Shown in pieces: positions 11,613-49,341 of a DNA stretch of 64,000 bases. A model generated the notes under the pieces. The model saw nothing but the letters and a program-made list of their open reading frames with translations, was not told the DNA's origin and ran no database searches. The stretch's first letter is position 1. Every line of letters starts with the position of its first letter. Source of the DNA: Anaerolineales bacterium (lineage in GTDB: Bacteria > Chloroflexota > Anaerolineae > Anaerolineales > UBA11579); NCBI GenBank assembly GCA_019637755.1, contig JAHBVC010000001.1:896480-960479 (forward strand), written 5' to 3'. Made by a program: the position numbers and the translations under genes.

Positions 11613-13205
11613 TTAGTCGTCTAACGTCAGGCTGGATTCAACGGCCAACTTACGTTGCTCCAGGAAGCTAAGCACACTCTCCACGGCTGCCTGGTAACGC
11701 TCTTCATCCACCAGAGCGCTCTGCGCGTTGGCCGCCAAGACCAGCTCCGCATAGCCTTGCGCCTTCTCCGCCAGCCCCGGGCTGCCCCATACCACGGCAT
11801 ACACCGCTTGCAGGGCTTGCTCGTACAACGCCCTAAACGTGTCATTGGCGATGAACCGGGTTAGCAACACATTGCTGCCCCCGCCCATGCGGCCCACCCC
11901 TTGTTGCTGCGCAAGGGTGAGGTCGAAGTTGGTGTTGCGTCCCAGTTTGCCCAGGCTTTCATTGGTGTCCCACAGCAAAACAGTCATTTGCTGGGTGTCT
12001 TCGTTAAAGTACAGATAGTAGTTATTGTTCATGCCAATCATCGAGTCGTTGTTGGCCAGCACCGCATTCAGTGCAAGGTATTTTGCAAATGCCTCCACAT
12101 CCAGCCATTCAGGCAGCTCTGCCTCGAAGGTGGCATCATCGGCTTGATCCAGAAAACGCATGAAATCGATCAGCGGCTTCATATCGGCGTCATTCACGCG
12201 TGTTTCCTGCGTAAAGCGCTCGGCATAACGGCTGGGCTCCTCCCCGTCATAGCTCAGCGTAGCGCCCACATCTGCTTTGTAGAGCACCCCCTGGGAGTCA
12301 GGGAAATGCTTGGCCAGGTACTCTTCGTTGATCAGTTCGGCGAGCACATACAACTTGGCATCGCCATCGTTGATACGAAATCCGGTGAACGCCGTCTGGC
12401 TGGCGGGTAGCCCGAGCTGTTGAGCCGCCTCATTGCTCAGCGGCTCTTGCAACTGGGCTTCATCGTAGGAAGTGCCATAGTTGCGAATGGCCAGCGCCGC
12501 GTAGCCTTGATAGGTCTGCCCATCCACATATTCGTCAAACTTGATCATGAAGGGGATCTTCACCAGGTCTTCTGCGATCGCTTCACGCCCCTGGCCCATT
12601 CCACCGGGGAAATTGCCTGGCATCTCCCCTCCTGGCCCACGCGCTTGCATTTCCTGGCCCTGGGGAGCTTGCTGCTCTGGCTGGCCTTCCATTGGCGCTT
12701 GTCCCCGCTCGGGCGGCACAAACCCCTGCATCCCTTCGGGCGCCTGGCCGTTAGCAAACGGCGGCATGCCCCCTTCGGGCATTTGCATCCCCTCTGGGGG
12801 CCCGCCGCCAGTGAAGGCGCCAAACCCTGCGCCTTCGCCCCCGCCGCCACCCAGCGCGGTGCGCAGGGAAGCGTTGCCGCGCAGCCGGATGCCGACATCG
12901 TTGATGCGCACGCCATCGATGATCACATCGGCCTGGAAGTATTCCTTCAGCCCGGTCTCCTGGTAGGTGGTGATCATGCTGTCGTAATCGGCATCAGACA
13001 TCAACACCTGCACCGCATGCACCAGATTATCGTCAAACACCTCCACCTGATTGTTCACCTCGCTTTGCCCAGCACTGGCGGCGCGTGGCGTACTGGTGCT
13101 GCTATAGGCAATGATGCGCTGACGCCCCAGCACGAACACCAGCCCGGCCAGCAACACCAGCAGCACGCCAACCAGTGGTAAATTGCGTTTCCATTTCATA
13201 CTCAT
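11613..13205 (-). CDS. CotH kinase family membrane-anchored protein
   Basis: 530-residue protein with an N-terminal membrane anchor (LPLVGVLLVLLAGLVFVLG). The CotH domain follows; CotH of Bacillus is an atypical protein kinase. Family segments include VGIRLRGNASLR, FMIKFDEYVDGQTYQGYAALAI, a NEEYLAKHF stretch, NAVLANNDSMIGMNNNYYLY and VLLWDTNESLG. Between about residues 120 and 230 there is a low-complexity insert rich in Met, Pro, Gly and Gln that interrupts the domain. AGGAGG lies 5 nt before the ATG. It is the last gene of a VTC-DUF4956-CotH operon, an arrangement known from Firmicutes and Chloroflexi. Outside location of the domain is inferred from the anchor. Confidence 0.9.
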   Translation of the reverse strand: MSMKWKRNLPLVGVLLVLLAGLVFVLGRQRIIAYSSTSTPRAASAGQSEVNNQVEVFDDNLVHAVQVLMSDADYDSMITTYQETGLKEYFQADVIIDGVRINDVGIRLRGNASLRTALGGGGGEGAGFGAFTGGGPPEGMQMPEGGMPPFANGQAPEGMQGFVPPERGQAPMEGQPEQQAPQGQEMQARGPGGEMPGNFPGGMGQGREAIAEDLVKIPFMIKFDEYVDGQTYQGYAALAIRNYGTSYDEAQLQEPLSNEAAQQLGLPASQTAFTGFRINDGDAKLYVLAELINEEYLAKHFPDSQGVLYKADVGATLSYDGEEPSRYAERFTQETRVNDADMKPLIDFMRFLDQADDATFEAELPEWLDVEAFAKYLALNAVLANNDSMIGMNNNYYLYFNEDTQQMTVLLWDTNESLGKLGRNTNFDLTLAQQQGVGRMGGGSNVLLTRFIANDTFRALYEQALQAVYAVVWGSPGLAEKAQGYAELVLAANAQSALVDEERYQAAVESVLSFLEQRKLAVESSLTLDD

Positions 13206-13229: not shown

Positions 13230-13910
13230 CTACAAATCGGTCGTGTTGTAGCCGGCGATCAACGACACTTTGTTGTTGCTGTTGAGTTTGCGCAGCTCGG
13301 CCACAAACTCCTCAATGCGATTGGCCTGCTTCAGGCCGATGCTGTAGGTAAGCTCCACCAAGGCCCCTTCTGCCAGGGTGTCTACACTGATCAGTTCTGA
13401 GCTGTAGCTGTATTTGAGAAACAGCGCATCGAACAGCTTGTCAAATGACAAGCCACTAGGCACCTGGATGCGCAAGATCTGGCTTGCCGCCTCACGGGCG
13501 AACCAGTTGAAGCGCATCATCAGTACGATCACCGCGCTGATCACCAGCGCGGCCACTACCGCCAACAGGTAGAAGCGCGTGCCGATCGCCATACCGACCG
13601 CCATGGTGAAGAAGATAAAGCCCACATCCCGCGTTTCCTTGACCGCATTCCGAAAGCGGATGATCGACAAGGCACCGACCAGCGAGAAGGCCCGCGCGAT
13701 GTTGGAGCCAACGATCATCATCACCAGCGCCACCACCATGCCGTTCAACACCAGCGTAAAGACGAAACTTTGGGTATACGACGTGCCCCGATGGGTGAGC
13801 TTGTAGACCCAGCCAATAAATGCGCTAAGCAAGAAGCTCAACCCAAGCACCAGCACAACATCCAATACAGAAAATTCTCCGGTTAGATCTTGAAAGTTAA
13901 AAATGTCCAT
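13230..13910 (-). CDS. DUF4956 family membrane protein
   Basis: 226-residue protein with about four membrane helices in the first 140 residues and a soluble C-terminal domain of about 85 residues. The segment GALSIIRFRNAVKETRDVGF between helices is characteristic of DUF4956. The C-terminal part (SYSSELISVDTLAEGALVEL, RIEEFVAELRKLNSNNKVSLIAG) looks like a small alpha/beta regulatory domain. AGGAG precedes the ATG. It lies between VTC and CotH genes, the usual context, and probably partners the VTC enzyme at the membrane. No biochemical function is established to my knowledge. Confidence 0.9.
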   Translation of the reverse strand: MDIFNFQDLTGEFSVLDVVLVLGLSFLLSAFIGWVYKLTHRGTSYTQSFVFTLVLNGMVVALVMMIVGSNIARAFSLVGALSIIRFRNAVKETRDVGFIFFTMAVGMAIGTRFYLLAVVAALVISAVIVLMMRFNWFAREAASQILRIQVPSGLSFDKLFDALFLKYSYSSELISVDTLAEGALVELTYSIGLKQANRIEEFVAELRKLNSNNKVSLIAGYNTTDL

Positions 13911-14703: not shown

Positions 14704-14746
14704 ACAGTCTCCTAAAAAGGTATGGCCACAGTCTAAAAATCGCGGC

Positions 14747-14799
14747 TGTGAACAAGCCAAAAAAGGGCTGTGAGTTGGCTGTGAAGGGCTGACTGTGAA
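14747..14799. promoter_or_regulatory. Pho-box-like direct repeats between VTC operon and two-component genes
   Basis: Read on the minus strand, TTCACA occurs at 14794-14799, 14780-14785 and 14747-14752, and CTCACA at 14769-14774. Distances between copies are 14, 11 and 22 bp, so three lie on one 11-bp helical phase. TT(A/C/T)ACA repeats of this spacing are the known binding site of PhoP-type OmpR-family regulators in Bacillus. Binding by the adjacent response regulator is inferred. Confidence 0.65.
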
Positions 14800-14869
14800 T
14801 CTGCTGAGAACGACCGCCAAACGCGGCGCGGCGGTGCGTTTCAGGGCAAACTAGGGAAAGGTGAATGCC

Positions 14870-15547
14870 ATGTCTGCTGTGCTGATCATTGATGATGACC
14901 CCAAGCTGCTCAAGATGCTGCAGCGCACGCTGACCTATGAGAGCCTGACCGTATTGACTGCCACCAATGGATTGGAAGCCTTGCCACTGGTGCAGGTACA
15001 CAAACCCAGCCTGATCATTGTGGATTGGATGATGCCCAAACTGGACGGGTTGAGCTTTGTACAGCGCCTGCGCGCCGAGGACAATAAAACCATGGTGCTC
15101 ATGCTCACCGCCCGTGACGCGATCGAGGACCGCGTAGAAGGTTTGGAAGGTGGCGCCGACGACTATCTGGCCAAACCCTTCGCCCCCAGCGAACTGATGG
15201 CGCGCGTGCACGCCCTGCTGCGCCGCGTGCAGGCCGAGCCGCACAACCAACCCGCCAGCTATGCAGACATCACCCTCGACCCGCTGACCCGTGAGGCGCG
15301 CCGCGGTGACAGTGAGCTCAGCCTGACCCTGACGGAGTTCAATCTGTTGCACCTGCTGTTGCGCCACCCGCGCCAGGTGCTGGAGCGCAGCCGCATCCTG
15401 AGCGAGATATGGGGCTACGATTTCGGAGGCAATGACAATGTGCTTGAAATCTACATTGGCTACCTGCGCAAAAAGCTGGAAGCGGATGGCCGCCCGCGCG
15501 TGATCCACACCGTGCGCGGCGTGGGCTATGTTTTACGCGAGGAGTAA
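14870..15547 (+). CDS. OmpR/PhoB family response regulator
   Basis: 225-residue transcription factor. Receiver domain with acidic pocket IIDDD (6-10), phospho-acceptor Asp52 in IIVDWMMPK, a Thr in MLTA and Lys100 in DDYLAKP; then a winged-helix DNA-binding domain (about 128-225) with TLTEFNLLHLLLRHPRQVLERS and YIGYLRKKLE, ending HTVRGVGYVL. The ATG at 14870 follows AAAGGTGA by about 6 nt; a GTG at 14861 is a weaker alternative. The stop codon abuts the kinase ATG. Given divergent VTC genes and TTCACA repeats upstream, a role in phosphate or polyphosphate control is likely but unproven. Confidence 0.93.
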   Translation: MSAVLIIDDDPKLLKMLQRTLTYESLTVLTATNGLEALPLVQVHKPSLIIVDWMMPKLDGLSFVQRLRAEDNKTMVLMLTARDAIEDRVEGLEGGADDYLAKPFAPSELMARVHALLRRVQAEPHNQPASYADITLDPLTREARRGDSELSLTLTEFNLLHLLLRHPRQVLERSRILSEIWGYDFGGNDNVLEIYIGYLRKKLEADGRPRVIHTVRGVGYVLREE

Positions 15548-16981
15548 ATGTCGATCCGCCTGCGCATCACCATTCTGTATACGCTGATCCTGGCCCTGAC
15601 CCTGTGCATTTTTGGTGTGGCGCTCTACACGATCCAATCTCAGTCCACCCTCGATTCATTGCGTCGCGATCTGACCAACAGCTCCAACCGCCTGGCAGAA
15701 GCCGTGGCGCGCACCACCCCGTATGGCGGCAGCCAGCCGCCTTTTAGCGGCCAGGTGCCGCCACTGCCTTTTGGCGAATTTTCCTCCGAGCAAGCCTTCC
15801 AAAGCTTCCCCGAGCACGAAATTGCCCGCGTGCTGGATACACAGGGCAATCTGGTGGCCAGCCCGTTCGGGCGCGCCGGAGATGCGCTGCCGCTCAGTGC
15901 AGCCGGCCTGCAAGCCTTGCAGCATGGCGAGGCATGGTGGGAAACGGGCGAAGTGGCTGGCGAGTCCATGCTCATCTATAGCCGGCCTATCGTTGTCGGG
16001 GATGAGTTTATGTCCATCATCCAGGTGGCGCGCAGCTTGGGTGAGCGCAGCCAATCACTGAACAGCCTGGCCACCACCGTCATCGCGGCGGGCTTGTTTA
16101 TGGTGCTGGTGGCCTTTGGCGTGGGTTGGGTATTCGCTGGGGTGATGTTGGCGCCCATTCACCGTATCACCCGCACCGCCCAAGCGATCGGCGATGAGCA
16201 AGATTTCTCACACCGCGTCGTTTATCAGGGGCCAGCAGACGAGGTGGGCCAACTGGCCAGCACCTTTAATTCGATGCTGGCGCGCCTGCAAAGTGCTTTC
16301 CAGCGGGTAGAACATTCACTAAGCATGCAACGTGACTTTGTGGCTGATATCTCACACGAGTTGCGCACGCCGCTCACTACCCTGCGCGGCAACCTTAGCT
16401 TGCTGCGCCGCAATGCGCCGATGCCCGCGGAGGAGCGCGAGGATATCCTAAACGATCTGATTGATGAGAATGACCGCCTGATCCGCCTGGTGAACGACCT
16501 ACTGCTGTTGGCCCGCGCCGACGCCGGCCGCCAGTTGGCCAACGAACCGTTGCCCGCCACCGAGCTGTTGCAAGAGGTGGCCCGCCAAACCCAAGTGCTC
16601 GACCCGCAGCGCACGCTGACCTTGACCGCCCCTGCCGGGCTACAGGTGCGTTGCGATCGTGATGCGTTCAAGCAAATCCTGATCATCGCTCTAGAGAACG
16701 CCATTAAACATTCCCAGGCCGAAGTCACTATCCACGCCGAGCCGCAGGGGCAGCAGGTTGAGATTCGCGTGCAAGACCGCGGTCCCGGCATTCCTCCCGA
16801 ACAACTGCCCCATATTTTTGGGCGCTTTTATCGCGGCGAACAGGCACAAGCGCACTCGCCTGGGTTTGGGTTGGGCTTAGCCATTGCAAAGACTCTGATG
16901 GAGAAGCAGGGCGGCCAGATTGAGATGCAAAGCACCCCAGGCGAAGGCAGCACCCTCATACTACGCTTTCCCAGCGGCTAA
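15548..16981 (+). CDS. Two-component sensor histidine kinase
   Basis: 477-residue membrane sensor kinase, partner of the response regulator whose gene ends one base before. It has membrane helix 1 (about 8-28), an extracellular loop of about 145 residues, membrane helix 2 (about 180-205), HAMP (LAPIHRITRTAQAIGD onward), a HisKA domain with His270 in DISHELRTPL, and an ATPase domain with the N-box ENAIKHS, DRGPGIP (G1) and GFGLGLAIAK (G2). The architecture is PhoR/BaeS-like. The extracellular sensor has no recognised fold; Phe/Pro-rich stretches are present. Confidence 0.94.
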   Translation: MSIRLRITILYTLILALTLCIFGVALYTIQSQSTLDSLRRDLTNSSNRLAEAVARTTPYGGSQPPFSGQVPPLPFGEFSSEQAFQSFPEHEIARVLDTQGNLVASPFGRAGDALPLSAAGLQALQHGEAWWETGEVAGESMLIYSRPIVVGDEFMSIIQVARSLGERSQSLNSLATTVIAAGLFMVLVAFGVGWVFAGVMLAPIHRITRTAQAIGDEQDFSHRVVYQGPADEVGQLASTFNSMLARLQSAFQRVEHSLSMQRDFVADISHELRTPLTTLRGNLSLLRRNAPMPAEEREDILNDLIDENDRLIRLVNDLLLLARADAGRQLANEPLPATELLQEVARQTQVLDPQRTLTLTAPAGLQVRCDRDAFKQILIIALENAIKHSQAEVTIHAEPQGQQVEIRVQDRGPGIPPEQLPHIFGRFYRGEQAQAHSPGFGLGLAIAKTLMEKQGGQIEMQSTPGEGSTLILRFPSG

Positions 16982-33820: not shown

Positions 33821-36800
33821 CTAACTTAAGGGCAATTCAATATAGAAGGTGCTGCCCAGGCCGAGCTCACTTTCGGCCCAGGCGCGGCCCTTATGGCGCT
33901 CGACGATGGAATGGGCAATTGAAAGGCCGGAGGCAGGTTGGCCCTCGCGGCGTGTAAAGATCAGCGGCAGATCTACCGGTGCAATACCCACCCCACTATC
34001 CTTGACGCTCAAGGTCACTTTGCTGGTGGAGTACTTCGCTGCCAGGCGCACTGTGCGGCCGCGCGCACTAAAGCGAATGGCATTGTCGAGCAGGTTCACC
34101 AGGGCACGCTGCAACAGGGTACGGTCGGCGCCCAGCAGGCGTTCGTGGCCCTCCACCGGATCCAACACCAGCTCGATCTGCTTCTGGCGGGCTTGCGCCT
34201 CCACTTCGCCCGCCGCCGCCTGCAGCAGGCCCGCCAGGGCAAATTCTTCCACGCGCAAGCCTTCGGCTTCCTGGATGCGATCGACAGCCAGCAGGCTGGC
34301 CGCCAGGCGCGTGATCTGCTCCACGCTGGCCTCGATCTTGTGCACATAGCCCTCTTGCTGCTCGTTCAGTGGGCCTAACATGCGCACCATGGTGAGGTAG
34401 CCAGCCACCATTTGCAACGGGTCTTGCAGATCATGCCCCACGGTGCTCAGCACCTCGCGTTCGGCGGCCTTCTGCTGCTGGCTGCGGGTGACATCCTCCA
34501 AGCGGCACACAAAGCCCAGCAGCTCTGCGCCATCCCATAGCGGGTTCAACTCGGCGTGATAAGCAGCTTGCTCAATGCGCAGCTGCGCGCTCTGCGGCCG
34601 GGCACCGGCCAGGCGCAAAAAGCGCTGGAGTTCCGGGTGAGTGATGGCCTGCTCCATCGCCGTTCCCGCGGCCAGCCCGGCCCGCAGCCGCAGTACGCGG
34701 CTGGCCGCCGGGTTGGCGAACACCAGCCGCTGGCCAGCATCCAGCAACAGCAATGGCTGCCCGTCCGCCGCCAGCACCGCCTCCAGGCGTTGCTGGCCCA
34801 GGCGTGCCTGCAGGTATTGGCCGGCATTGCTGGCCGCCGCCGAAGCCTGGGCAGCCAAGCTCTCCAGATAGTGGCGCGTGCTGTCTTCAAAGCGTTGCGG
34901 CTGATCGTAGGCCAGCCACAAGGCGCCCAGTTGCTTGCGGCCATCTTTAAGGGCAAAGGCCGCCACCGAGCCGGGATAGGGCGTACCCTTCTCCACTTTC
35001 AAGCGTGCCCGTGCCGGGTTGCTCAAGAGCACTTGATCCTGAGCGCGGGTAAGCGCCAGGATCTGTGCATCCAGCGCTTCATAGCGCTCATGCCCTTCGC
35101 CCTGGCCAAAGCTAACGCCACTGCCGCCGCCCTCGTTGAGAAAGACCAGCCGTGCCAAGGATGCCCCGGCCGCCAGCGCGGCCTCCAGCAAGGGTTCGAT
35201 ATGGCTGCGCACCTCGAGGCTCGAGGAGAGGCCGTGGCTGAGCGCCAGCAAGCGTTGCGATTCTTCGGCGCGCGAGAGCACGGCGCGCCGCATGACTTCA
35301 AAGGCGGAGCCCAGCCGGCCGATCTCATCGCTGCCCGTGATCGAAAGCGGGGCGCGCAAATCGCCGGCAGCGATGCGCTGCGTTTCGGCGGCCAGGGTCT
35401 GCAAGGATTGGCTTACGCTGCGCAGCCGGCTGCGCAGCGTGGCATACGCCACCGCCGCCAGCAGCAGCAGCACGCCCAGCATCGGCAGCGCTACGCGCAG
35501 GGCCTGCTGCTGCGAAAGCCGCAGCGGCCAGCGCACCAGCACCGCCCAGTTGCTACCCGCCGCAGGCTGGTAGCGTACCCACATACGCGTGCCGTCAACG
35601 GCCACTTCTTCGTATGCGGGCGCATTAGCGTTCACTTGGTAAGGCTGCAACAATGCCGCACTGAACGGCGCCATGACGATCTGGCCTTGTCCATCCAACA
35701 AGAACGCCTGAGCCCCTAAAGCATTGATGCTCTCGAGGCTTTGCGCCACCGGACGCGCAAAGGGATTACTGGCCAGCACGGTGCGCCCCACCAATACATT
35801 GCGCACTTGCTGATTGCTGTTGCGCACCGCGGCCACAAAGACCAGTTGCGCGCTATCAGGCTGGGCGCTGCTGGGCGCTGCGCTGACCAGTTGCAGGTTC
35901 ACGCCTTGCAGCGCCAACCCCACCGCATCCAGCTCGGCCGGGCTGGGCTGCAAGCGGCTGTATTCGCTCAGTGGCGTGCCCGCCACCACGTTGCCGCCGC
36001 TATCCAGCAGGGTCAGTTGCTCAAAATAGGGAATGCTGCTCAGATGGCTCTGCAACACATCCAGCGCCTGCGCGGGCGGCGCATCTGCCAGGCGCCCATC
36101 CGCGGCCAGTTGTTGCATCAAACTTTGGCCGGTTTCCAATACAAAGGGCACCGCGCCGGCCGCAATCTGTACATTGTTATCGATACGATCGGCGAATAAT
36201 TGCTGGGCGCTGCGCCCAGCCGCCCACCAGGTCAGCGCACCCATAGCCACAAAGGCGATCAGGGCCAGCGGCACCAGGGCAAACAGAAAACGCGCTTCCA
36301 GGCTGCGTTCGCTGGGCGCCGGCTGGGCACTGTGCGTGTTCGGCCGCTCCCATTGCGGCCAGCGCGCCAAAGCCAACTGCAACAGCAGCGCTCCCAGCCA
36401 CAGCGGCACGCCTGCAGCCAGTGTGGCACCGCCCAGGCGCGAGAGCGCAAAATCCAGGCTCACTAACCAACTGGGCGAGACCCAAAAGAAGGCACTGGCC
36501 AAATAGATAAACGGATACAGCAGCGAGAGCAGCGCCGCCGCCACCCACGGCTTACGCAGCCAGGCGAACAGCGTAGTGCTGTAGCGTTGGCTGCGCAAAA
36601 AGGCGAAGGCGCCGGCCAGCAAGGCAAATTCCAACGCGGTAAATGGGCTGCGCGTATCCGCAGTAGCCAGCAGCAAGCCGCCCAGCGCTGCCAGCGGCAG
36701 CGCGGCGCGCGCCCCGAACCACACCAGCGCCAGCATCCAGGGCAGCGCCAGCAACGGCGCCAGCAGCGCGCCCCGCGCCGGCATGCCCAGCTCTGGGATA

Positions 36801-37039
36801 GGCAGCGCCGCCCCTGGGGCCAGGCGCACAGTCAGCAGCAGGATCGTCAGCGGTACCGCCAGCACCAGGGCCAGCAGGCGCAACTGCTGTGTACGCGTCC
36901 ACAAGACCTGACGGCGCTCCAGGCGCCAAGCCAGCGCCACGGCGGCGGCCAGCATCACCAGCCAGGCCAGCCATCCCAGGCCGCCCAGCGGAGGCAAAAT
37001 GCTCAGAAAGGGAAAAAATTGCAGAAAAGTGTAGCTCAC
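33821..37039 (-). CDS. Large membrane sensor histidine kinase (multi-TM, Cache-like, HAMP, GAF, PAS)
   Basis: 1,072-residue kinase. Residues 1-235 hold about eight membrane helices; a further helix near 255 is followed by an extracellular Cache-like domain (about 280-500), a second membrane helix (about 510-530), HAMP (to about 590), GAF (about 600-740), PAS (about 755-870), then HisKA with the phospho-acceptor His near 868 in VGHDLQDPL and HATPase with NLLDNAIRFS, KDSGVGIAP and GLGSTFYIELPL. The N-terminal polytopic module may be an extra sensor. GTG start overlaps the cmk stop by 4 bases, so translation is coupled to cmk. No cognate response regulator is adjacent. The signal is unknown. Confidence 0.9.
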   Translation of the reverse strand: MSYTFLQFFPFLSILPPLGGLGWLAWLVMLAAAVALAWRLERRQVLWTRTQQLRLLALVLAVPLTILLLTVRLAPGAALPIPELGMPARGALLAPLLALPWMLALVWFGARAALPLAALGGLLLATADTRSPFTALEFALLAGAFAFLRSQRYSTTLFAWLRKPWVAAALLSLLYPFIYLASAFFWVSPSWLVSLDFALSRLGGATLAAGVPLWLGALLLQLALARWPQWERPNTHSAQPAPSERSLEARFLFALVPLALIAFVAMGALTWWAAGRSAQQLFADRIDNNVQIAAGAVPFVLETGQSLMQQLAADGRLADAPPAQALDVLQSHLSSIPYFEQLTLLDSGGNVVAGTPLSEYSRLQPSPAELDAVGLALQGVNLQLVSAAPSSAQPDSAQLVFVAAVRNSNQQVRNVLVGRTVLASNPFARPVAQSLESINALGAQAFLLDGQGQIVMAPFSAALLQPYQVNANAPAYEEVAVDGTRMWVRYQPAAGSNWAVLVRWPLRLSQQQALRVALPMLGVLLLLAAVAYATLRSRLRSVSQSLQTLAAETQRIAAGDLRAPLSITGSDEIGRLGSAFEVMRRAVLSRAEESQRLLALSHGLSSSLEVRSHIEPLLEAALAAGASLARLVFLNEGGGSGVSFGQGEGHERYEALDAQILALTRAQDQVLLSNPARARLKVEKGTPYPGSVAAFALKDGRKQLGALWLAYDQPQRFEDSTRHYLESLAAQASAAASNAGQYLQARLGQQRLEAVLAADGQPLLLLDAGQRLVFANPAASRVLRLRAGLAAGTAMEQAITHPELQRFLRLAGARPQSAQLRIEQAAYHAELNPLWDGAELLGFVCRLEDVTRSQQQKAAEREVLSTVGHDLQDPLQMVAGYLTMVRMLGPLNEQQEGYVHKIEASVEQITRLAASLLAVDRIQEAEGLRVEEFALAGLLQAAAGEVEAQARQKQIELVLDPVEGHERLLGADRTLLQRALVNLLDNAIRFSARGRTVRLAAKYSTSKVTLSVKDSGVGIAPVDLPLIFTRREGQPASGLSIAHSIVERHKGRAWAESELGLGSTFYIELPLS

Positions 37040-37740
37040 GTCCCGTTGGCCAGCTCTGCCTGCCGTGTGCGCACCAGGGCCAGCGCTTCTTCTAATACTT
37101 CGCTGGCTTGCATCCCATCCGATACGAGGGTGATCGCATCTGCCGCCGCCCGCAACGGGGCCACTGCGCGGCTGGTGTCATAGGCATCACGCTGCTTGAG
37201 CGACTCTAGCACGTCTGCATAGGGCGTGCTGTCCCCGCGCGCGTGCAATTCTTCAAAACGGCGGCGGGCACGCTCCTCTTGCGAGGCGGTGAGGAAGATC
37301 TTGGGGTCCGCCTCCGGCAGCACCACCGTGCCAATATCGCGCCCCGCCATCACCACGCCACCGCGCAGACCAATGCGGCGCTGCTGTTCGGTGAGCGCAC
37401 TACGCACCCCGGCATACGCCGAGACTTGCGAGACGTGCGCCTCTACATCCGGCTGGCGCAGTTGCCAGGTGCAATCCTCGCCATCCAGCAGCACATCGTA
37501 GAGGCGTTGGTCCGCCACGCTGGCCGGGCGCAGATCGATCTCCACCGCGTGTGCCAAGGCTTCCACCGCCGGCTGATCATCCAGTGTCACGCCGCGCTTC
37601 AGCGCCGCCAGGGTGACGGCGCGATACATCGCCCCGGTGTCAAAGTACAAATAACCCAGCGCATCGGCCAGGTTTTTTGCCAGGGTGGATTTGCCGGAAG
37701 CGACCGGGCCGTCGATAGCGATGGTGAGCGGTTTGGACAT
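37036..37740 (-). CDS. cmk: Cytidylate kinase
   Basis: 234-residue enzyme that phosphorylates CMP and dCMP with ATP. P-loop GPVASGKST (10-18), YLYFDTGAMYRAVTL, DGEDCTWQLR, the VSQVSAYAGVR segment of the CMP-binding insert, GRDIGTVVLPEADPKIFLTAS and the lid with ARRRFEEL are present; size is normal. It starts directly after the stop of the upstream membrane protein and overlaps the kinase downstream. Confidence 0.96.
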   Translation of the reverse strand: MSKPLTIAIDGPVASGKSTLAKNLADALGYLYFDTGAMYRAVTLAALKRGVTLDDQPAVEALAHAVEIDLRPASVADQRLYDVLLDGEDCTWQLRQPDVEAHVSQVSAYAGVRSALTEQQRRIGLRGGVVMAGRDIGTVVLPEADPKIFLTASQEERARRRFEELHARGDSTPYADVLESLKQRDAYDTSRAVAPLRAAADAITLVSDGMQASEVLEEALALVRTRQAELANGT

Positions 37741-39450
37741 TTAGCGAAAGTCTCCACTGGAAGTAGTAAGCACGTCATGCGGCAGCACATCGGCTGCCGC
37801 CCATAGAATGATGGTTTCCTGCTGCTGCGGCGTCTGGCGGTAGAGCCACCACGCGATCACATCCGTAGGCAGCATCTGCCAGGCCGGGGAGCTGGAAAGG
37901 GTAAAGCTCTGCCCGCGGTAGGCGCGCTGGCGCGCCGGTTCCTGCACATCGGCCGGCAGGAGCAGCAAGTCTGCCTCCTCGCGCTGCGCTGGCGGCGCGA
38001 ATTGGCGGCCCAGCCAGGCCAGCGCCGGGCTGGGGCTACCCAGCTCCAGGCTCAACGCCTGGCGTTGCCCCGTGGCGCGTAGTGAGAGTGCATCCAGGCT
38101 ATCGCGCAGCAAGCCCAATTGGCCCGCCGCTGCCCCTGGCGACCAAAGCTCGGCGCCCTGGCCGGCCGCGGGGTTGCCAAAGCGCGTGGCCCCCGCCAGC
38201 GCGAACAGCATGCAAAACACGGCCAGGCTCCACACCAGGCCGTCACGCGCCGCGCGGGCAGACCAGCCCAGCGCCACCAGCAAGGTCACCACCGCCGCTA
38301 GCACCACCACGCCGGCGGCGATAAACAGCGCCGGCCGCACCGCCTCTGGCAGCGTGGCCAGTTGCGGAATGCGCGCCAACGAGAGCACCCAAAAACTGAG
38401 CAGCACCACCATCAAGGCGAAATGGCCCCAGGCGGCCTGCGGTTCGCTAGCAGGCAGTTGCAAGCTACTGGCGATCACGGAGGCGGCCAGTAGCCACAAG
38501 GGCACCAATACCCAGATCAGATCGGCCACCTGCCGGCCAGGGTAAAGCAAGATCAACGCCAGCGCGGCCGCCGCCAACAAACTGGCAGCCTGCAGCTCAC
38601 GCCGCCCCTGGCGCCAGGCGAGCAGCGCCCCCCACATGCCCAAGAGCAAGGTGGGGGCGCTGTAGCCAACTAACGCGAACAGCACGCGCCCCGCGGCAAC
38701 GCCACTGGGGTGCAGCCAGCCCGTCACGAATTCGGTCAGCGGCGCGGCCACACTGGCGAAGCCGCCGGGAAACTGAAAGAACAGACTGCTGCCCAACAGC
38801 ATTACCGCCAGCAAGCTCAGCGCGGCCGGCCCCAAAGCATCCTTAGGCAGTGCACTTCTGATGAAGAAGGCCCACACCAGCAGGGCAACCAGCACGCCAA
38901 TATATGCCGCCGGCGCGGCCAGCAAGCCCAGCCCCACAAAAGCGCCAGCCAACCTGTGCCGCCCGGCCGCCCAGGCGCTAGCCGCCAACAGCAGCCCCGC
39001 CAAGGCCAACATGGCACCGGAGGCCAGCCGCGACAACGCCACCAGGCCCGGATCCAAGGCCAAGCCCAGCGCCAGCACCAAGGCGGTACGCCGCCCCAGC
39101 CGGTTGCGCCACGCGTAGGGCAGCGCCACCAGCGCCAGGCCCAGCACGGCCGGCCATAAGCGTGCCAACCATTCATTGCTACCGCTCAGGGAGAAGGTCA
39201 GTGCGGTCAGCAGGCTATAGCCCGGTTGCGCCCCCAAAGTAGTTGTGCCCGTCTGGGCCAACTCAAAGGCAGGCAAGGCAGCGCGGGCCTCAAAGTCATT
39301 TAGCGGCAGGCTGCCCAGTTGCCCGAAGCGCAGCCAGGCGGCCACAACAAGGATCAATACGTAGGCTGCAACTTCAAGGGTTAAGGAGGGGCGGCGCGCC
39401 ATATCCCGCAGATTATAGTCGGCGCTGTCTGCCCCTGCGCGGCGACTCAC
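37741..39450 (-). CDS. Polytopic membrane protein, GT39/ArnT-like
   Basis: 569-residue protein with about 11-12 membrane helices and a short soluble C-terminus (about 470-569). The first extracytoplasmic loop has LPLNDFEARAALPAFELAQTG, in the place of the acidic loop of GT-C glycosyltransferases of the PMT/ArnT kind, and SLSGSNEWLARLWPAVLGLAL follows. It probably transfers a sugar from a polyprenyl carrier outside the membrane. The GTG at 39450 shares one base with the preceding stop (TAGTG); an ATG at 39402 is an alternative start. Fourth of a run of related membrane genes. Confidence 0.75.
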   Translation of the reverse strand: MSRRAGADSADYNLRDMARRPSLTLEVAAYVLILVVAAWLRFGQLGSLPLNDFEARAALPAFELAQTGTTTLGAQPGYSLLTALTFSLSGSNEWLARLWPAVLGLALVALPYAWRNRLGRRTALVLALGLALDPGLVALSRLASGAMLALAGLLLAASAWAAGRHRLAGAFVGLGLLAAPAAYIGVLVALLVWAFFIRSALPKDALGPAALSLLAVMLLGSSLFFQFPGGFASVAAPLTEFVTGWLHPSGVAAGRVLFALVGYSAPTLLLGMWGALLAWRQGRRELQAASLLAAAALALILLYPGRQVADLIWVLVPLWLLAASVIASSLQLPASEPQAAWGHFALMVVLLSFWVLSLARIPQLATLPEAVRPALFIAAGVVVLAAVVTLLVALGWSARAARDGLVWSLAVFCMLFALAGATRFGNPAAGQGAELWSPGAAAGQLGLLRDSLDALSLRATGQRQALSLELGSPSPALAWLGRQFAPPAQREEADLLLLPADVQEPARQRAYRGQSFTLSSSPAWQMLPTDVIAWWLYRQTPQQQETIILWAAADVLPHDVLTTSSGDFR

Positions 39451-41960
39451 TAAGGCACCGCGTAAATAGTGACTGAATCGTTTTGAAAGGCCACGGACAA
39501 GCGTGCCTGGAATTTGGCTTCGTTCACCGGGTAAGCGTTGCGCTCGAGATCACCCACGATGACATAGTGCACGTCATAGCGCTGCAGAATTTCCGCCGCC
39601 AGCGGCCACTGGCTGCTGGCATACAGCGTGCGCACGGCTTCTTCGCGTTCGCGCTCATACTCCCCCGCGCGCCACTGGCTCTCGTGCCCCGGCCAGCCGA
39701 GCACACCCGGCAGGCCACTGAACGTGGCGTAGCGCGCGTAGCCGGTGTAGCTGCCGCCCACCGCCTCTGCTATCACGCCGGGATCGGCCGTCTGCAACCA
39801 GGCGATCGCCGCGCGCGCGTCGGCGGGCAGGTAAGCGCTGCCATCCAGGCTCAACGCCTGGCCTTCGGGGCGGCTGGCCAGATCGGCAAAGGCATACAGT
39901 GGGAACACCAGCCCGGCGCCCAGCGCCAGCAGCAGGGCGGCCCACGCCGCCGTGCGGCGTAGTGACTTGTGCCCAGCCAACCATAAGCTACCGAGCGCAA
40001 ACGCGGCCGCCACGCTCCACAGCAGCCAGGCCTGGTAGTAGAACTTGAACACCGTGTTCATGCGCGTGCCAAACTGATCGCGCAAGTAAACGAACTCTGG
40101 TGCGGTCACCAGCAAGGCGCCCACTAAGGCCAGCAGCAACGCAAACTGGCTGGCGGAGTGCGCCGGGCCGCGGCCAGCAGGCTTAGCGGGCCAGGCCAGC
40201 AAGCCGCCTAGCAGCCCGAGCATCAGCGCCAGGCTGAGCCAACCCCCCGCTGCGGCGGCGCGGCGTTGCAGTGCCGCCGCCAACAGGCTGGGCAGATCAG
40301 CGGCGCCAAAGCCGGTGAGGATCGCCGCGCCGAGGGGTGTGTTGCCCAGCGCGCCGGCATACACCCGCGCCATCAATAGCGACGCGCCCCACAGGGCCAG
40401 CACAAACCCCAGCCCCCCCAAACCTGCCCGCAGCAACAGGCTGGCGGGGCGGGTGCGCCACTGCACCAGCGCCCACAGCAGCAGCGGCGCCCACAGGGGC
40501 AGGAACATGATCCAAAGCTGCACCCCGCGCGTCGGGTTGATCAGGTTGGGCAAGATGCCGCCCGCCTGCGAACTGAAGCCGACAAAGAAGGGCACAAACA
40601 GCAAAACGCCCAAGCCCACCACCACCAGCAGCAGACTCATAAATTCGCCCAGCCGCGCCATGGCCCAGCCGTGAGCCTGCGCCCGGCGGAGGGCATACGC
40701 CGCCGCCAGCACACCGGCATAGATCGGCAGATCCCAAAAATTGATGAAGGCCAGCGCGCCGATCACCAAAGCGGCCAGCAGGATCGCCTCCGGCTGAATG
40801 TACACATCGATCAGCGGCCGGCGGCCGGCGCCAGGGTGGCGCTGGAGCAATTGGCGCCAATCGTTGGCGCCATCCTCAACATACAGCCCCAGCAGCGGCC
40901 GCTTGCTTTCGTTACCGCCGCGATAGGTGTTGTAAGCCAACCCCACGGCCAGCAGCACAAAGGGGATCGAAAACACATGCGGATGCAAATCTCCCAGCAC
41001 AAAAGAAAAAGCCGGGAACTCATCGATCAGCTCTTGCTCCTGGCCGAGGAGATTGCGGTCATTGATCACGCGTGAGGCGCGCCACCACCACCAGTACGAG
41101 GTATCGAAGTAGCGTGGGGCCCAACGCGGCGCCTCGTTGGGCGGGTTCACCAGGTCTTTGACATCCAGCCAGGCCCACACCGCTGACTGCGCCTGGCCGC
41201 TCGCATCGGTTTGCCAAAATAGATGGCGCGCATGGGCAATCTCCAGCAAGCCTTCGGCGTTGCCCATCACCAGCATCAGCAGCGGGGCCAGGCCCGCCAG
41301 CCAGCGCAGCGTGCCGTAGCGCGCCGGCGCGTGCTGGGCCAGCAAGTTGAACACCAGCCCATAGGCGGCGGCGGCGCCCATGGCAAACACGCTGGCAATC
41401 CCCAGGTTGAAGGCCACCGCGCCGGCCACACCCAGCAGCTTGGCCAGCATGGCTACCATCAGGTAGCCGAAGTAATAGTAGGAGATGGAGTATCCCGCCA
41501 GCCACGGGTCATGCGGCGGCAGGCTGGGCGAGCGCAAGATGGCATTGATGAAGGCCAGCTCCATCGGCTTCTCGGTGCCTTCGATGCGCGGGTAACTGGC
41601 GCGCATCCATAACATGAAGCCGAAGCTGAGCAGGAACACCAGCTCGGTCGCTACGATCTGGCTGCGCTGCTCGCGCAGCCATGCGCCCAAGTGCCCCGCG
41701 GGCAGTTGCCGCGCCGCCCAGGCGCTGAGGCCGGCCAGCAGCAGCAAGGCCAAGAGCAAACTCGGCACGTCGTTGGCCAGCAAGCCCAGGCTGCCCAACA
41801 GCCAGAACACAAAGCCCCACAGCAGCAGCGCCAGCGGGCGCAAAAAGCCATAGCCACGCTCGGCCAGGGCTGGGAACCAACGATAGGCCAGCGGCAGCAC
41901 CAGCCAGCTCAGGCCGGCCAGCGCCAGATACCAGGCCAGGGCGCTCCACAACTCACCCAT
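39450..41960 (-). CDS. DUF2298 (Chlor_Arch_YYY-type) polytopic membrane protein
   Basis: 836-residue integral membrane protein. The family core is GTEKPMELAFINAILRSPSLPPHDPW and YYYFGYLMVAMLAKLLGV near residues 130-185, then many helices and a soluble C-terminal part (about 690-836). DUF2298 proteins occur mainly in Chloroflexi and archaea and are thought to be GT-C-like transferases. It starts by a 1-base overlap (TGATG) with the giant fusion upstream, whose C-terminal half belongs to the same family. Confidence 0.9.
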   Translation of the reverse strand: MGELWSALAWYLALAGLSWLVLPLAYRWFPALAERGYGFLRPLALLLWGFVFWLLGSLGLLANDVPSLLLALLLLAGLSAWAARQLPAGHLGAWLREQRSQIVATELVFLLSFGFMLWMRASYPRIEGTEKPMELAFINAILRSPSLPPHDPWLAGYSISYYYFGYLMVAMLAKLLGVAGAVAFNLGIASVFAMGAAAAYGLVFNLLAQHAPARYGTLRWLAGLAPLLMLVMGNAEGLLEIAHARHLFWQTDASGQAQSAVWAWLDVKDLVNPPNEAPRWAPRYFDTSYWWWWRASRVINDRNLLGQEQELIDEFPAFSFVLGDLHPHVFSIPFVLLAVGLAYNTYRGGNESKRPLLGLYVEDGANDWRQLLQRHPGAGRRPLIDVYIQPEAILLAALVIGALAFINFWDLPIYAGVLAAAYALRRAQAHGWAMARLGEFMSLLLVVVGLGVLLFVPFFVGFSSQAGGILPNLINPTRGVQLWIMFLPLWAPLLLWALVQWRTRPASLLLRAGLGGLGFVLALWGASLLMARVYAGALGNTPLGAAILTGFGAADLPSLLAAALQRRAAAAGGWLSLALMLGLLGGLLAWPAKPAGRGPAHSASQFALLLALVGALLVTAPEFVYLRDQFGTRMNTVFKFYYQAWLLWSVAAAFALGSLWLAGHKSLRRTAAWAALLLALGAGLVFPLYAFADLASRPEGQALSLDGSAYLPADARAAIAWLQTADPGVIAEAVGGSYTGYARYATFSGLPGVLGWPGHESQWRAGEYEREREEAVRTLYASSQWPLAAEILQRYDVHYVIVGDLERNAYPVNEAKFQARLSVAFQNDSVTIYAVP

Positions 41961-44900
41961 CAGCGTTCCAGCACTTCATAGATGGCCGTATCGCCAACGC
42001 GGAAAACTTCCTGCCACAGGCGCCCCTCGGCCGCGGCGAACTTGGTCAGACCCTCCGCGGAATACACGGCTTGCTCCATCTGGCCCACCACAATGTAGCG
42101 CACGGCGTACTTGGCCAGCAGGTTCTCGGCTTGGGTCAGATCCGTGGTTTCGTAAAATAGATTGACATCGCCCATGCGCCCCCAGACATCATTGCCGGGC
42201 ACAAACTCGCGCTGCTGGCGTTGGTGATGGTTCCAGCCCAGCACCGCCGGCAACCCGGTATAGATGGAATAGCGCGCCCCCCAGCGGTACTCGCTGACGT
42301 AACCTTCCATGATCACCGGCGAACCGTTGACGTGGTCTTGCATCCAGCGGATGGCGGCGTAATCTTCACTGAGCATCAGCACGCGATCGGCTTCGTAGTA
42401 CACGGCATTTTGCATATACGCCATGCCGTCGAGGGTGTGCGGGCTACCCTCCGCCATGCGGTCTCTGATCTTGGCGGTGACGCCCAGTAGCAGGAACAAT
42501 GCCGCGCAGGCCAGCAACAGCGTGGCCAGGCCCTGCCACACGCCGCGCCAATTGGGTGACCAGTGCGGCAGGGCCTGCCAACACCAAGCCGCCGCCAGGC
42601 TGGCGCACAGCGCCAGCAACGTCCAGGCTTGCATATAAAACTTGAAGACCGTGTTCATGCGCGAGATGTCGCCTTTCAGCACCATCACTTCCACAAACAA
42701 GGTCAGGAAGACCGCCGTGCCACTCAAGAACAGCACCAGCCGCTTGCTTTCATCCTGGCCGGGGCGCAGGAACAGCGCACCGATCCACAGCAGCAGGGGC
42801 ACCAGCAACCAGCCCACCACCACGCCGAGAATCTGCAGGGCAAACAAGATCAGGAAAATAGCTAGCGCGCCCAGGGGCAGCGCCCACACATAGCCCTCGA
42901 GCTTGCGCACCGAGGAAAGCGGCGTACTGGCCAGCCATTGGCGCGTCTCCCAGGCCAGCCAGGCCACCAGGAAAAAGAGGAACACGCCCCAATGCGTAAA
43001 GTAAGGCCCAAAGGCCACGTGAACACCATCCCACACGCGCAGAGAGCTGTAGCCCTGGCGATACCACCAGCCAAACGGCACATAGGCCAGGTAGCACAAC
43101 GCCGCCAGCACCAGCGGCCCGGCCAGCATCTTCAGGCTGCGCGGCAAGCCCTGCGCCGTGCTACGCGGCAGGTAACGCCACAAGGCATAGCCCGCAGCCA
43201 GCGCCGCCAAGAGCGCGTAGACCGGCAGATCCCAGGTGTTGATCGGGCGCAAGCTGCCGATGACGATGCCGCCAAAAACGAAGACCCAGGCCAGTTGCAG
43301 CGCGCCGCGCAGCCCGCGTTGGGCGCGTGCCGTGCCCCACCCGCCGCTGAGCACCGCCGAGAGCGCCCAGGCCAGCGCCAGCAATGTGACCGGCAGGGCG
43401 ATCATGTGAGCGTGCAGATCGGCGTAGGTGAAGGTGAACAACGGGAATTCAGTGATCGGCGCCGATTCGCCCGGAGCGGGGAAGATGCGCGTCGGGTTCC
43501 AATACCACTCGCCCAAGCCATACGGCAGCGGCGTCCCGGTCAGCGAGAGGGCCAGCCCGCGTAGCATCCAGCCCAGCTGGGTTAGTGTGCCCACGCCTTC
43601 CAACGCGGCCCCGCCGCCGCCCAGCCGCGCGTAGCCCTGCAAGATCATTTGAATGCTGCCCAGGTTGCCCAGCAGCACACTGGCCAGCGCGGCGCTCAAA
43701 CCCACGGCATGCGCACCCGGGCCGCGCGCCGCCACCGCCTGGCGTGCCTGCCAGGCGGCCCACAGATTCCATGCGACGCTATAGGCCCCCAAGGCCAGCA
43801 TGGCGAACAAGCTGGGCAGGATCAGGTTGTAGGCCACCGCGGGGATAATGCCGAGCAGCTTGACCAGGGCGCCGACCAATACAAAGCCGTAATAGTAGTA
43901 ATTGATATAGCCGCCGGCGAACCACGGGTCATACGCGGGGAAGCTGCTGCTCTTGAGCACCGCGTTGAAATAGGCAAAATCCATCGGCTTCTCGCCGCCT
44001 TTGGCAGGGTGCCATAAATCAGGATTGCCCAGACGGATCAGCAGCATGATGAGGAAGAAGCCGAGGAACAACGCCTCGGTGCGCAGGAACATGGCACGCT
44101 GGCTCTTCCACTCCGCCTTGATCTGCGGCCATTGTGGCCGGGCCGCCAGCACGCCCAACAAGCCGATCAGCAGTGCGCACACGGCCAGCCAGGCGCGGCT
44201 GAAGCTCAGCCCCAGCGAGCCGCCCAGCCAGCCCAGATAGGCCAGCAGCAGTAACCCTGCCAAGCGCGCAAACGGGTAGCCGCCATCCCGCAGGCCGGGC
44301 AGAGCCCAGCGCACCAAGGGATACGCCAGCACGCCCAGCACGCCCAGCGCCAGATACCACACCACCAGGCTGACCCATGGCGCAGCATTGACCCAGGCCT
44401 GGCGGCTGAACAACGCCGCCCAGGTGCCGCCGGCCTGCTGCTCTGCCAGCCGGTCGGCGGGCAGCATCAGCGTGGGCGGCACACCACCCGAGGCTTGCTT
44501 CGGGGTGAGGTTGACCGCCTGGTCTACCGGAGCGCTGGCCAGAATGGCGGCCACCGCGGCCGGGTCGTAGGCGGCGGTCTTTTTGAAGATCAGCACCTTG
44601 GGATGGTCGTAGACGGTGAAGGCTTCTTCGGCCCATTGGTCGTTGAAGCTCCAACCGCCCAGGTGCGGGGCGTTCTCAAACACTTGCACCAGCTCAAAGC
44701 CCAGTTGGCCGCTGAACTGGCCGGGCTGTGCTTCGGCATAGCACCACTCAATGCTGCGCTCCGTGGGGCAGCCTAACAGGGCGCGGTAATAAGTGATCGC
44801 CAGCGGAAAGCGTTCCGGCAGGCGCGGCAGGCTGCCCCATTGGCGGTTGGACGAGATGAACACATAGTCCGCCGCATCGAGCGTGCTCTGAAATCGCTGC

Positions 44901-47110
44901 ACCTTCTCGGCGTTCTCGTTCCAGTACATTTCAAAGTTCAGCCCGCCCTGGTAGATGCCCCCAAAGCCGTCGTAGCTATCGATGCGCAGGGGCAGGCCGT
45001 CATCCCAACTGGTTTCGTTGGCCACCGGGCTCCCTTGCAAAATCGCCTGCGTTGCATTGAGTGTGCTGAGTTGCAAGTAGTAGATGATGCCTTGCTGCAG
45101 GGTCACTGGCGACTCTAGCGGCAGGCTGGCTGCGTTGGCCAGGCTGGCGCCGGGCGCCACCGCCAACGTAGTATCCAGCAGGGGCTCGGCCATATCCGGG
45201 CTCAGGCTGAGCTGCACGCGCAGCGGCACGGGCGCCGGCCGCAAGGCCTTCTCCGGCCGCAAGTAGAGCACCACCTGGTCAGGGAAGTTGCCTGGTGCCA
45301 GTGCAAATTGCAGATCCAACGCCGCGCCCAGTTGGGTGAGTAGCGGCGCGTCGAGCACGTCTTGTTGCGGCAGCTCACTGCTTTGCGAGTGGCTCACCAC
45401 CACGCGCTCCACCCACAGGCTGCCTGTGCCCGCCGGAAACTGCACATGCAATTGGTACAAGGCCAACGGGTCAGCGAAGGTGGTGGCGCCTACCGCCATT
45501 GCCACTGCGCTGGTCTCACCCACAGGCAGGTTGGCAAAATCAACCACCTGCCCGTAATCGGCGTTGAGCACCTCGCCACTGGCGCCCGAACGCAGCGTCA
45601 GCGCCAGCGGCGTTTGCAGCGTCTTGAAGTCCAGCTGGGTCAGCACGCCACCCTGGCGCGCCGAGAAGCTGGTGAGCAAGGGCATTTCGGCGCGGATGCG
45701 CGTGTTGTAGGGCAGCGAGAGCGGCTGGTGGCTGGTGCCCTGCTCGTTTTGCACAATGAGTGTCAGCGGGCCAGGGATGTTGTCATAGATCCAGCGCGTG
45801 GCGGCCACGCGGGCGTGCGGCTGCAGGTAGACCTGGACGAAGGCCAGCGACCATAGCAGGCCACCCACCACGCCCAGCACGCCCAGGCCCAGCGCGGCGG
45901 CACGCAGCCAGCGGCTGGCAGGCGCCGCTGCGCCGCGGCGCGCCGCGGCCAACCGCCACAGCTCAAAAATGCCCCAGGCGCCCAAGATCGCCAGCATTGG
46001 GTACAGCGGCAGAAAATAGCGCATGGTGGGGTTGAAGGCCAGCGACTGTTGCACAAAATAGATCAGGCCCCAAGCCAAAACCACAAAGTACGGCTTGAGC
46101 CACTCGCCTTTAAGGGCGCGCCAGGCTGCCCAGCCAAAGCCCAGCCAGCTAGTGATCGCCAGTGGCCAACCCAGCCCCCAGCGCACAATGTTTTGCAAGC
46201 CGAACCACAGCGGGCGGCGCGCCCATTGCATCGAGGGCGGCCAATCGGCATCGCCGCTCACCTGGGCGGCAAGCTGGCGCATAGTCTCAACCCACTCAGG
46301 GTTGAGGCGTAGGCCGATGAAGGCATAAGGCTGAAAAATGCGGAAGGCCAGCAGGCTCAGCCCGGCCGCCATCAGCGTATACAGCACACCCTTGCCAAGC
46401 TGCGCCTCGCGCCACTCGGCCTCCATCGCCTGCACCCGAATGATCACGGCGATCGGCAAGGTGAGGCACACCAGGCCCACGCTGACTTTGGAAGCCATGG
46501 CGCTGCCCAACGCCACGCCGAACCACACGAAATCCCACAGGTCAAAGCGCCCCTTGGCTTTGGTGGAGGGAGTGGCCACGCGCACGGCGAAATACACCGT
46601 GATGACAGTGAACAGGTTGACAAAATTGTCCACTGTCCAAAAATGCGATTGCTGGATCGCCATGACGGAGACGCTGTAGAAGGCCGCCGCCAGCAAGCCG
46701 ACCCGGCGATCAAACAGGCGCCGGGCGGTGAAGTACACCATGGCGATCACGCCGACATCGGCCAGGGCGGAAAGCACGCGCCCGACCAGATAGATGGAGT
46801 CGTAACCGGTCATCTGGGTCCACTCGCCGACATAGCGCACCAAGACCACTGGCAGCGTGCCGTAGACAAAGAAGCTAAACCCGGCATTGCTGGGATTCAG
46901 CGTGGAGCTGGCCGTGTTGAAGTATTCGCCGAGGCTGGGGACACTGTGCAGCGCCGCGGCTACCTGGGTCAGAAAGCGCTCATCGGGGTGCAAGTGGCGG
47001 CTCTCGTCCCAATCCAGCCCCGCCAGGCGCAGGGTAGCGGCGGCCAGCAACAAGGCCACCAGGGCGGCCTGATACAGCCATTGCGGAATGCGGTAGGTGT
47101 GCTTGGGCAT
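41960..47110 (-). CDS. Giant GT39-DUF2298 fusion membrane glycosyltransferase
   Basis: 1,716-residue protein made of two polytopic modules. The N-terminal part (to about residue 430) is a PMT/ArnT-like GT-C domain with acidic loop LDWDESRHLHPDERF (about 32-46) and about 10 helices. Residues about 440-920 are mostly soluble and beta-rich, containing carbohydrate-binding-like stretches. From about 930 another polytopic domain begins with the DUF2298 signature GGEKPMDFAYFNAVLKSSS, then YDPWFAGGYINYYYYGFVLVGALVKLLG near 1040-1080. The C-terminal 130 residues are soluble and resemble the tail of the neighbouring DUF2298 protein. The stop overlaps the next start by one base. Likely role: sugar transfer from polyprenyl donors to envelope glycans (inferred). 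Confidence 0.9.
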   Translation of the reverse strand: MPKHTYRIPQWLYQAALVALLLAAATLRLAGLDWDESRHLHPDERFLTQVAAALHSVPSLGEYFNTASSTLNPSNAGFSFFVYGTLPVVLVRYVGEWTQMTGYDSIYLVGRVLSALADVGVIAMVYFTARRLFDRRVGLLAAAFYSVSVMAIQQSHFWTVDNFVNLFTVITVYFAVRVATPSTKAKGRFDLWDFVWFGVALGSAMASKVSVGLVCLTLPIAVIIRVQAMEAEWREAQLGKGVLYTLMAAGLSLLAFRIFQPYAFIGLRLNPEWVETMRQLAAQVSGDADWPPSMQWARRPLWFGLQNIVRWGLGWPLAITSWLGFGWAAWRALKGEWLKPYFVVLAWGLIYFVQQSLAFNPTMRYFLPLYPMLAILGAWGIFELWRLAAARRGAAAPASRWLRAAALGLGVLGVVGGLLWSLAFVQVYLQPHARVAATRWIYDNIPGPLTLIVQNEQGTSHQPLSLPYNTRIRAEMPLLTSFSARQGGVLTQLDFKTLQTPLALTLRSGASGEVLNADYGQVVDFANLPVGETSAVAMAVGATTFADPLALYQLHVQFPAGTGSLWVERVVVSHSQSSELPQQDVLDAPLLTQLGAALDLQFALAPGNFPDQVVLYLRPEKALRPAPVPLRVQLSLSPDMAEPLLDTTLAVAPGASLANAASLPLESPVTLQQGIIYYLQLSTLNATQAILQGSPVANETSWDDGLPLRIDSYDGFGGIYQGGLNFEMYWNENAEKVQRFQSTLDAADYVFISSNRQWGSLPRLPERFPLAITYYRALLGCPTERSIEWCYAEAQPGQFSGQLGFELVQVFENAPHLGGWSFNDQWAEEAFTVYDHPKVLIFKKTAAYDPAAVAAILASAPVDQAVNLTPKQASGGVPPTLMLPADRLAEQQAGGTWAALFSRQAWVNAAPWVSLVVWYLALGVLGVLAYPLVRWALPGLRDGGYPFARLAGLLLLAYLGWLGGSLGLSFSRAWLAVCALLIGLLGVLAARPQWPQIKAEWKSQRAMFLRTEALFLGFFLIMLLIRLGNPDLWHPAKGGEKPMDFAYFNAVLKSSSFPAYDPWFAGGYINYYYYGFVLVGALVKLLGIIPAVAYNLILPSLFAMLALGAYSVAWNLWAAWQARQAVAARGPGAHAVGLSAALASVLLGNLGSIQMILQGYARLGGGGAALEGVGTLTQLGWMLRGLALSLTGTPLPYGLGEWYWNPTRIFPAPGESAPITEFPLFTFTYADLHAHMIALPVTLLALAWALSAVLSGGWGTARAQRGLRGALQLAWVFVFGGIVIGSLRPINTWDLPVYALLAALAAGYALWRYLPRSTAQGLPRSLKMLAGPLVLAALCYLAYVPFGWWYRQGYSSLRVWDGVHVAFGPYFTHWGVFLFFLVAWLAWETRQWLASTPLSSVRKLEGYVWALPLGALAIFLILFALQILGVVVGWLLVPLLLWIGALFLRPGQDESKRLVLFLSGTAVFLTLFVEVMVLKGDISRMNTVFKFYMQAWTLLALCASLAAAWCWQALPHWSPNWRGVWQGLATLLLACAALFLLLGVTAKIRDRMAEGSPHTLDGMAYMQNAVYYEADRVLMLSEDYAAIRWMQDHVNGSPVIMEGYVSEYRWGARYSIYTGLPAVLGWNHHQRQQREFVPGNDVWGRMGDVNLFYETTDLTQAENLLAKYAVRYIVVGQMEQAVYSAEGLTKFAAAEGRLWQEVFRVGDTAIYEVLER

Positions 47111-47113
47111 GGG

Positions 47114-49249: not shown

Positions 49250-49283
49250 AGGGCGAATGGCCTGCTGAGGCCACGCCTGATTT

Positions 49284-49300
49284 TATCGTAGCGCACGATA
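49284..49300. promoter_or_regulatory. Palindrome TATCGT-N5-ACGATA upstream of the GT39 block
   Basis: Six-base arms separated by five bases, overlapping a TAAAAT-like -10 on the minus strand, about 35-50 bases before the ATG at 49249. A second small hairpin TGGCCT-CAGC-AGGCCA follows. Operator function is a guess. Confidence 0.35.
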
Positions 49301-49341
49301 GCGCGCCTGTGTGCAGATGACGCCAGGGTTAATGCGCGGCG

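Follow-up and report, generated by a model that had tools for sequence, protein, structure and literature searches.

The window, a stretch of 64,000 nucleotides, carries a minus-strand gene set encoding a VTC-domain protein, a DUF4956 membrane protein and a CotH-kinase-family protein, divergent from genes for an OmpR-family response regulator and a sensor histidine kinase (Table 1). The first-pass annotation had placed a repeat array facing a polyphosphate-polymerase-like gene and adjoining a regulator and kinase of this kind, and gene order and Pfam domains agree with it. The VTC domain scores 157.1 bits against a Pfam cut-off of 23, with invariant E, K and R positions, and its profile matches Vtc4 structures (E 3.5e-4); a single-sequence search of PDB sequences returned no relative, Vtc4 being reached by the profile only. 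By its sequence the protein is thus a member of the VTC polyphosphate polymerase family, with a putative role in polyphosphate synthesis. The CotH protein contains a long Gly/Met/Pro/Glu/Gln-rich insert (window 12660-12930, minus strand), and RPEG-type stretches are common to this insert and to short proteins encoded between the regulator and VTC at three related loci (L053, L070, L074). For the regulator, a start at ATG 14870 agrees with relatives better than one at GTG 14861. A Pfam search found no PAS domain in the kinase. Elsewhere in the window, positions 36000-50000 show a strong positive AT skew, reaching 0.31 at 40-42 kb, and an Rfam search found no RNA family in the window.

Table 1 Genes, operator units and predicted promoter elements of the VTC-DUF4956-CotH locus (window coordinates).
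Feature	Position	Strand	Basis
CotH-kinase-family protein, 530 aa	11613..13205	-	Pfam CotH, E 1.8e-40
DUF4956 membrane protein, 226 aa, weak MgtC resemblance	13230..13910	-	Pfam
VTC-domain protein, polyphosphate-polymerase-like, 258 aa	13927..14703	-	Pfam VTC, E 6.9e-46; conserved charged residues
Likely ribosome-binding site of VTC, AGGAGA	14708..14713	-	Sequence
Predicted -10 hexamer of VTC promoter, TAGACT	14730..14735	-	Position conserved in relatives
Operator unit F, innermost, TTCACAG	14746..14752	-	Sequence; ends 10 bp before -10 hexamer
Operator unit E, degenerate, TTTTTGG	14757..14763	-	Fills 22-bp gap, 11-bp phase
Operator unit D, CTCACAG	14768..14774	-	Sequence; conserved in relatives
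Operator unit C, TTCACAG	14779..14785	-	Sequence; conserved in relatives, often as TTCTCAG
Extra unit B, TTCACAG	14793..14799	-	14 bp upstream of unit C
Extra unit A, TTCTCAG	14804..14810	-	11 bp from unit B
OmpR-family response regulator, predicted array binder	14870..15547	+	Pfam Response_reg, Trans_reg_C; recognition helix comparison
Sensor histidine kinase	15548..16981	+	Pfam HAMP, HisKA, HATPase_c

The array lies in the intergenic region between the VTC start codon (ATG 14703, minus strand) and that of the regulator (ATG 14870, plus strand). Plus-strand CTGTGA, the complement of minus-strand TCACAG, occurs at 14746, 14768, 14779 and 14793, with spacings of 22, 11 and 14 bp; read toward VTC, the four units are TTCACAG, TTCACAG, CTCACAG and TTCACAG, at steps of 14, 11 and 22 bp. 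Four minus-strand (T/C)TCACA units at these steps had been described in the first-pass annotation, and their positions, sequence shuffles and a genome-wide pattern count bear them out. Its account of the extent of the array was incomplete: the four units stand, and two had been overlooked, namely TTCTCAG (14804-14810) and the degenerate TTTTTGG (14757-14763). Units F to C therefore form a core with a strict 11-bp period (14746-14785), and units B and A make up an additional pair set 14 bp upstream of unit C. Units A and B are also present in two related genomes (G001 and G007) and are degenerate in a third (G009). In relatives, the slot of unit E is occupied by TTCTTGG or a similar sequence in almost all of the 23 corresponding gaps. 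In none of 5000 dinucleotide-preserving shuffles of the intergenic region did a hexamer reach four copies within 48 bp, and the 64-kb window holds only one other four-fold hexamer cluster (CCCAGC, 46129-46177). Pattern searches of the 2.26-Mb genome for CTGWGAR-N4-CTGWGAR at zero mismatch gave three occurrences, two of which are at the array.

When GTDB contigs were searched with an alignment of DUF4956, 29 loci emerged, 27 from Chloroflexota and 2 from the actinomycete Catellatospora, and the regulator is beside or near the module in 20 of them. The module with divergent regulator and kinase genes is found in G001, G007, G009 and G023, and in a looser form in G048. TCWCAG units spaced by 11 or 22 bp are found, in one pair or more, at 21 of the 26 usable Chloroflexota loci; of the remaining five, L058 has no VTC start, L049, L054 and L065 have degenerate arrays, and L057, in whose genome the best regulator is merely 57% identical, has none. 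When spacings from 8 to 40 bp were scanned, clear enrichment was seen at 11, 22 and 33 bp only, with 29, 21 and 17 pairs in the module promoters (9 kb) and 2, 4 and 2 pairs outside them (366 kb), although neither pair nor locus counts are independent, because the loci are related. All but one of the eight pairs outside belong to three additional arrays of the same clusters (L049:3086, L050:192 and L069:8737). A random-window control was discarded because its windows could partly overlap module promoters. The enrichment fits the helical phasing of an OmpR-family array, as first proposed, and the array is conserved before the homologous operons of close relatives.

The repeats were also considered as CRP/FNR-type half-sites or as a chance cluster of TGTGA, which is a CRP half-site. 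The shuffles and the conservation exclude chance. The units repeat directly, at 11, 22 and 33 bp, instead of forming TGTGA-N6-TCACA palindromes, and a CRP-type palindrome was rejected on this geometry, leaving such an explanation hardly credible.

Toward VTC, unit F is followed after 10 bp by TAGACT, then by AGGAGA and the VTC start. The same geometry recurs in relatives, where a TANNNT hexamer lies exactly 10 bp after the last TCWCAG in 17 of 23 VTC promoters. Among the remaining six, three (L049, L054 and L056) have it at 32 bp, which, being 22 + 10, fits a degenerate last unit at these loci. At the regulator promoters, TANNNT is found at 10 bp in 10 of 13 cases and at 21 bp (11 + 10) in three more. 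In class II activation by OmpR-family regulators, an operator unit occupies the place of the -35 box. Since the last unit stands 10 bp from the -10 hexamer at both VTC and regulator promoters, an operator unit lies where the -35 box would be. We propose a mechanism in which regulator dimers would bind the TTCACAG units head to tail, one per 11 bp, with unit F substituting for the -35 box at its distance of 10 bp from the -10 hexamer; the bound regulator would then activate VTC transcription in the class II manner. In most relatives a second promoter, of the form TTCACAG-N4-TTCACAG-N10-(-10), would drive the regulator and kinase genes. This regulator-side site is degenerate in the window lineage, including G001 and G007, and for this reason autoregulation is not claimed for the window or these two genomes.

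The distribution of the array follows that of the regulator. Where inserted genes separate VTC from the regulator (L055, L069, L070 and L074), arrays precede both, while at L053 VTC is preceded by a single unit only. The genomes of L049 and L054 show no regulator beside the module; an orthologue lies on another contig (79 and 78% identity, respectively), and upstream of these off-module orthologues is TTCACAG-N4-TTCACAG-N10-TATATT. Within the genus, the four genomes with a close DUF4956 orthologue all have a close regulator orthologue as well, and the seven others, some of which are incomplete, have none. The metagenome-assembled genomes of L050 and L060 are exceptions, with arrays but a best regulator of only 55% identity, perhaps owing to incompleteness.

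An 11-bp-phased CTGTGA pair, adjoined by a terminator-like hairpin, also lies between short-chain dehydrogenase and YceI-like genes in three genomes (L042:1501, that is G000:C1:701172; L104:1501 in G007; L101:1501 in G008). G008 keeps this pair and has no orthologue of the window regulator, so another protein may read such pairs, and the YceI-like gene was rejected as a target of the array regulator on the same ground. G008 does have a paralogous OmpR-family regulator (C2:671190 in the window's genome), which raises the alternative that this paralogue, some other family member or several regulators together read the array. The paralogue, however, is distributed across the whole genus, including genomes that lack module and array; its recognition helix differs from that of the window regulator, and its own upstream region shows no TCWCAG unit. 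Because the array tracks the orthologue of the window regulator instead, we regard reading by another regulator as quite improbable.

The recognition helix points to the adjacent regulator as well. The closest solved regulators are PrrA and PhoP of Mycobacterium tuberculosis, PrrA (1ys6) being the best sequence match among solved structures. In its structure with DNA, PhoP forms a tandem dimer on TCACAGC-N4-TCACAGC and contacts bases through Asn212, Val213, Glu215, Ser216, Tyr217 and Tyr220 (PMC4832192). The corresponding residues of the window regulator are N, V, E, I, Y and Y, identical at five of six places, and its Chloroflexota orthologues have the same residues with an occasional I to V change. 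The Catellatospora regulators have NSLDVY, together with TTCTTAG-type units in the same 11-bp phase. This comparison predicts that the window regulator binds the array. The two operators share the 7-bp unit, the 4-bp spacer and the direct-repeat arrangement, and their regulators have nearly the same base-contacting residues; they differ in their targets and in that four to six units here directly abut the -10 hexamer. PhoP is a homologue of the window regulator and not necessarily its orthologue.

Taken together, the best reading of the array is an ordinary OmpR-family direct-repeat operator of a dedicated two-component switch. We put at roughly 85% the probability that it serves as the operator of the VTC-DUF4956-CotH operon, read by the divergent adjacent response regulator and activating, so that this regulator very probably switches on the polyphosphate-polymerase/kinase gene set. 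The array itself, its phase, the spacing to the -10 hexamer, the conservation and the linkage to the regulator are established from sequence; from them we infer binding by the regulator, activation rather than repression, and autoregulation.

The first-pass annotation had taken the repeats for a Pho-box array and the adjacent pair for a PhoB/PhoR-type system through which phosphate status controls the module. TTCACA fits the Bacillus PhoP-type consensus quoted there, 11-nt repeats of GTTCAC type serve PhoP in Streptomyces and PolR in Microlunatus, and VTC belongs to a polyphosphate-polymerase-like family. Against this reading stands a phosphate locus elsewhere in the genome, phoB-phoR-pstSCAB, whose phoR encodes a PAS domain and in which pstS is accompanied by two permease genes and pstB. 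The best score of its genome against the PhoB model comes from within this locus (C1:159118), the window regulator ranking fifth; the PAS domain of the pst-linked PhoR is absent from the window kinase; and the recognition helix of the pst-linked PhoB (RTVDVHVRWLR) differs from that of the window regulator. That the NCBIfam PhoB cut-off is missed was not by itself counted against a PhoB identity, as this threshold is reached in just 2 of 14 control genomes. The array regulator is therefore not the PhoB phosphate system of this genome.

The promoters of the phosphate genes are in line with this. The genome-wide pattern search found no array-type pair near pst, so the suggestion that the same array would precede pst genes did not hold. 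In all 11 genus genomes the pstS promoter has TTAACA, followed 11 bp on by ATAACA in seven and by TTAGCA or TTTGCA in four, and the TCWCAG/CTGWGA unit occurs in none of these 11 promoters. The TTAACA-type 11-bp direct repeats of the pstS promoter (L093:8098-8330, G000:C1) are probably the true Pho box of the genus. With a separate phosphate locus carrying different boxes, a phosphate link of the module is unsupported, and we consider control by phosphate status unlikely; the dedicated switch described above is preferred.

The reach of this switch may extend beyond the operon. Several relatives also have the array ahead of DUF4405/cytochrome b561-like genes, or ahead of a short reading frame with a Cthe_2159 carbohydrate-binding gene behind it. 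Short frames beginning M-S/T-LKFKR at L055, L049 and L070, located between the array or the DUF4405 genes and Cthe_2159, are similar to the N-terminal part of the window CotH protein and look like its signal segment on its own. We tentatively suggest a stand-alone two-component regulon across Chloroflexota, with a counterpart in Catellatospora, in which one operator may tie VTC-DUF4956-CotH both to redox-type proteins of the DUF4405/cytochrome b561-like kind and to carbohydrate-binding proteins of the Cthe_2159 kind, possibly in an envelope or matrix response and not in phosphate storage. A DUF4956 gene is among the changed transcripts in two papers, on iron-limited Bacteroides and on Bifidobacterium grown on xylo-oligosaccharide, too little for inference of a signal. 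Literature searches, with most subscription journals outside their scope, found no description of a link between the regulator and the module. A dedicated regulator with a precise, conserved operator offers a handle on VTC-DUF4956-CotH gene sets: it allows the regulon to be drawn up from sequence and co-regulated genes to be identified, and it sets the module apart from the phosphate regulon.

Among known systems, PolS-PolR of Microlunatus phosphovorus (GTTCACnnnnnGTTCaC; PMC6754071) and the Streptomyces PhoP boxes likewise show related sequences repeated directly every 11 bp. Genes for polyphosphate and for phosphate transport are under PolR control (PMC6754071). The unit of those systems is GTTCAC, as against TTCACAG here, and their targets are ppk, pit or pst genes; no gene of these kinds bears the array in this genome. 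The gene content resembles that of Gram-positive Pel clusters, in which CotH, polyphosphate polymerase and DUF4956 genes stand side by side (PMC7112168, PMC12345266). In S. intermedius, mutants in the CotH gene or in SIR_1592, which has an MgtC domain, show less Pel and less aggregation (PMC7112168, PMC12345266). By this analogy, the role of the module leans toward the envelope or matrix. The accessory genes of Pel clusters adjoin pel genes, whereas the module described here stands with its own two-component system.
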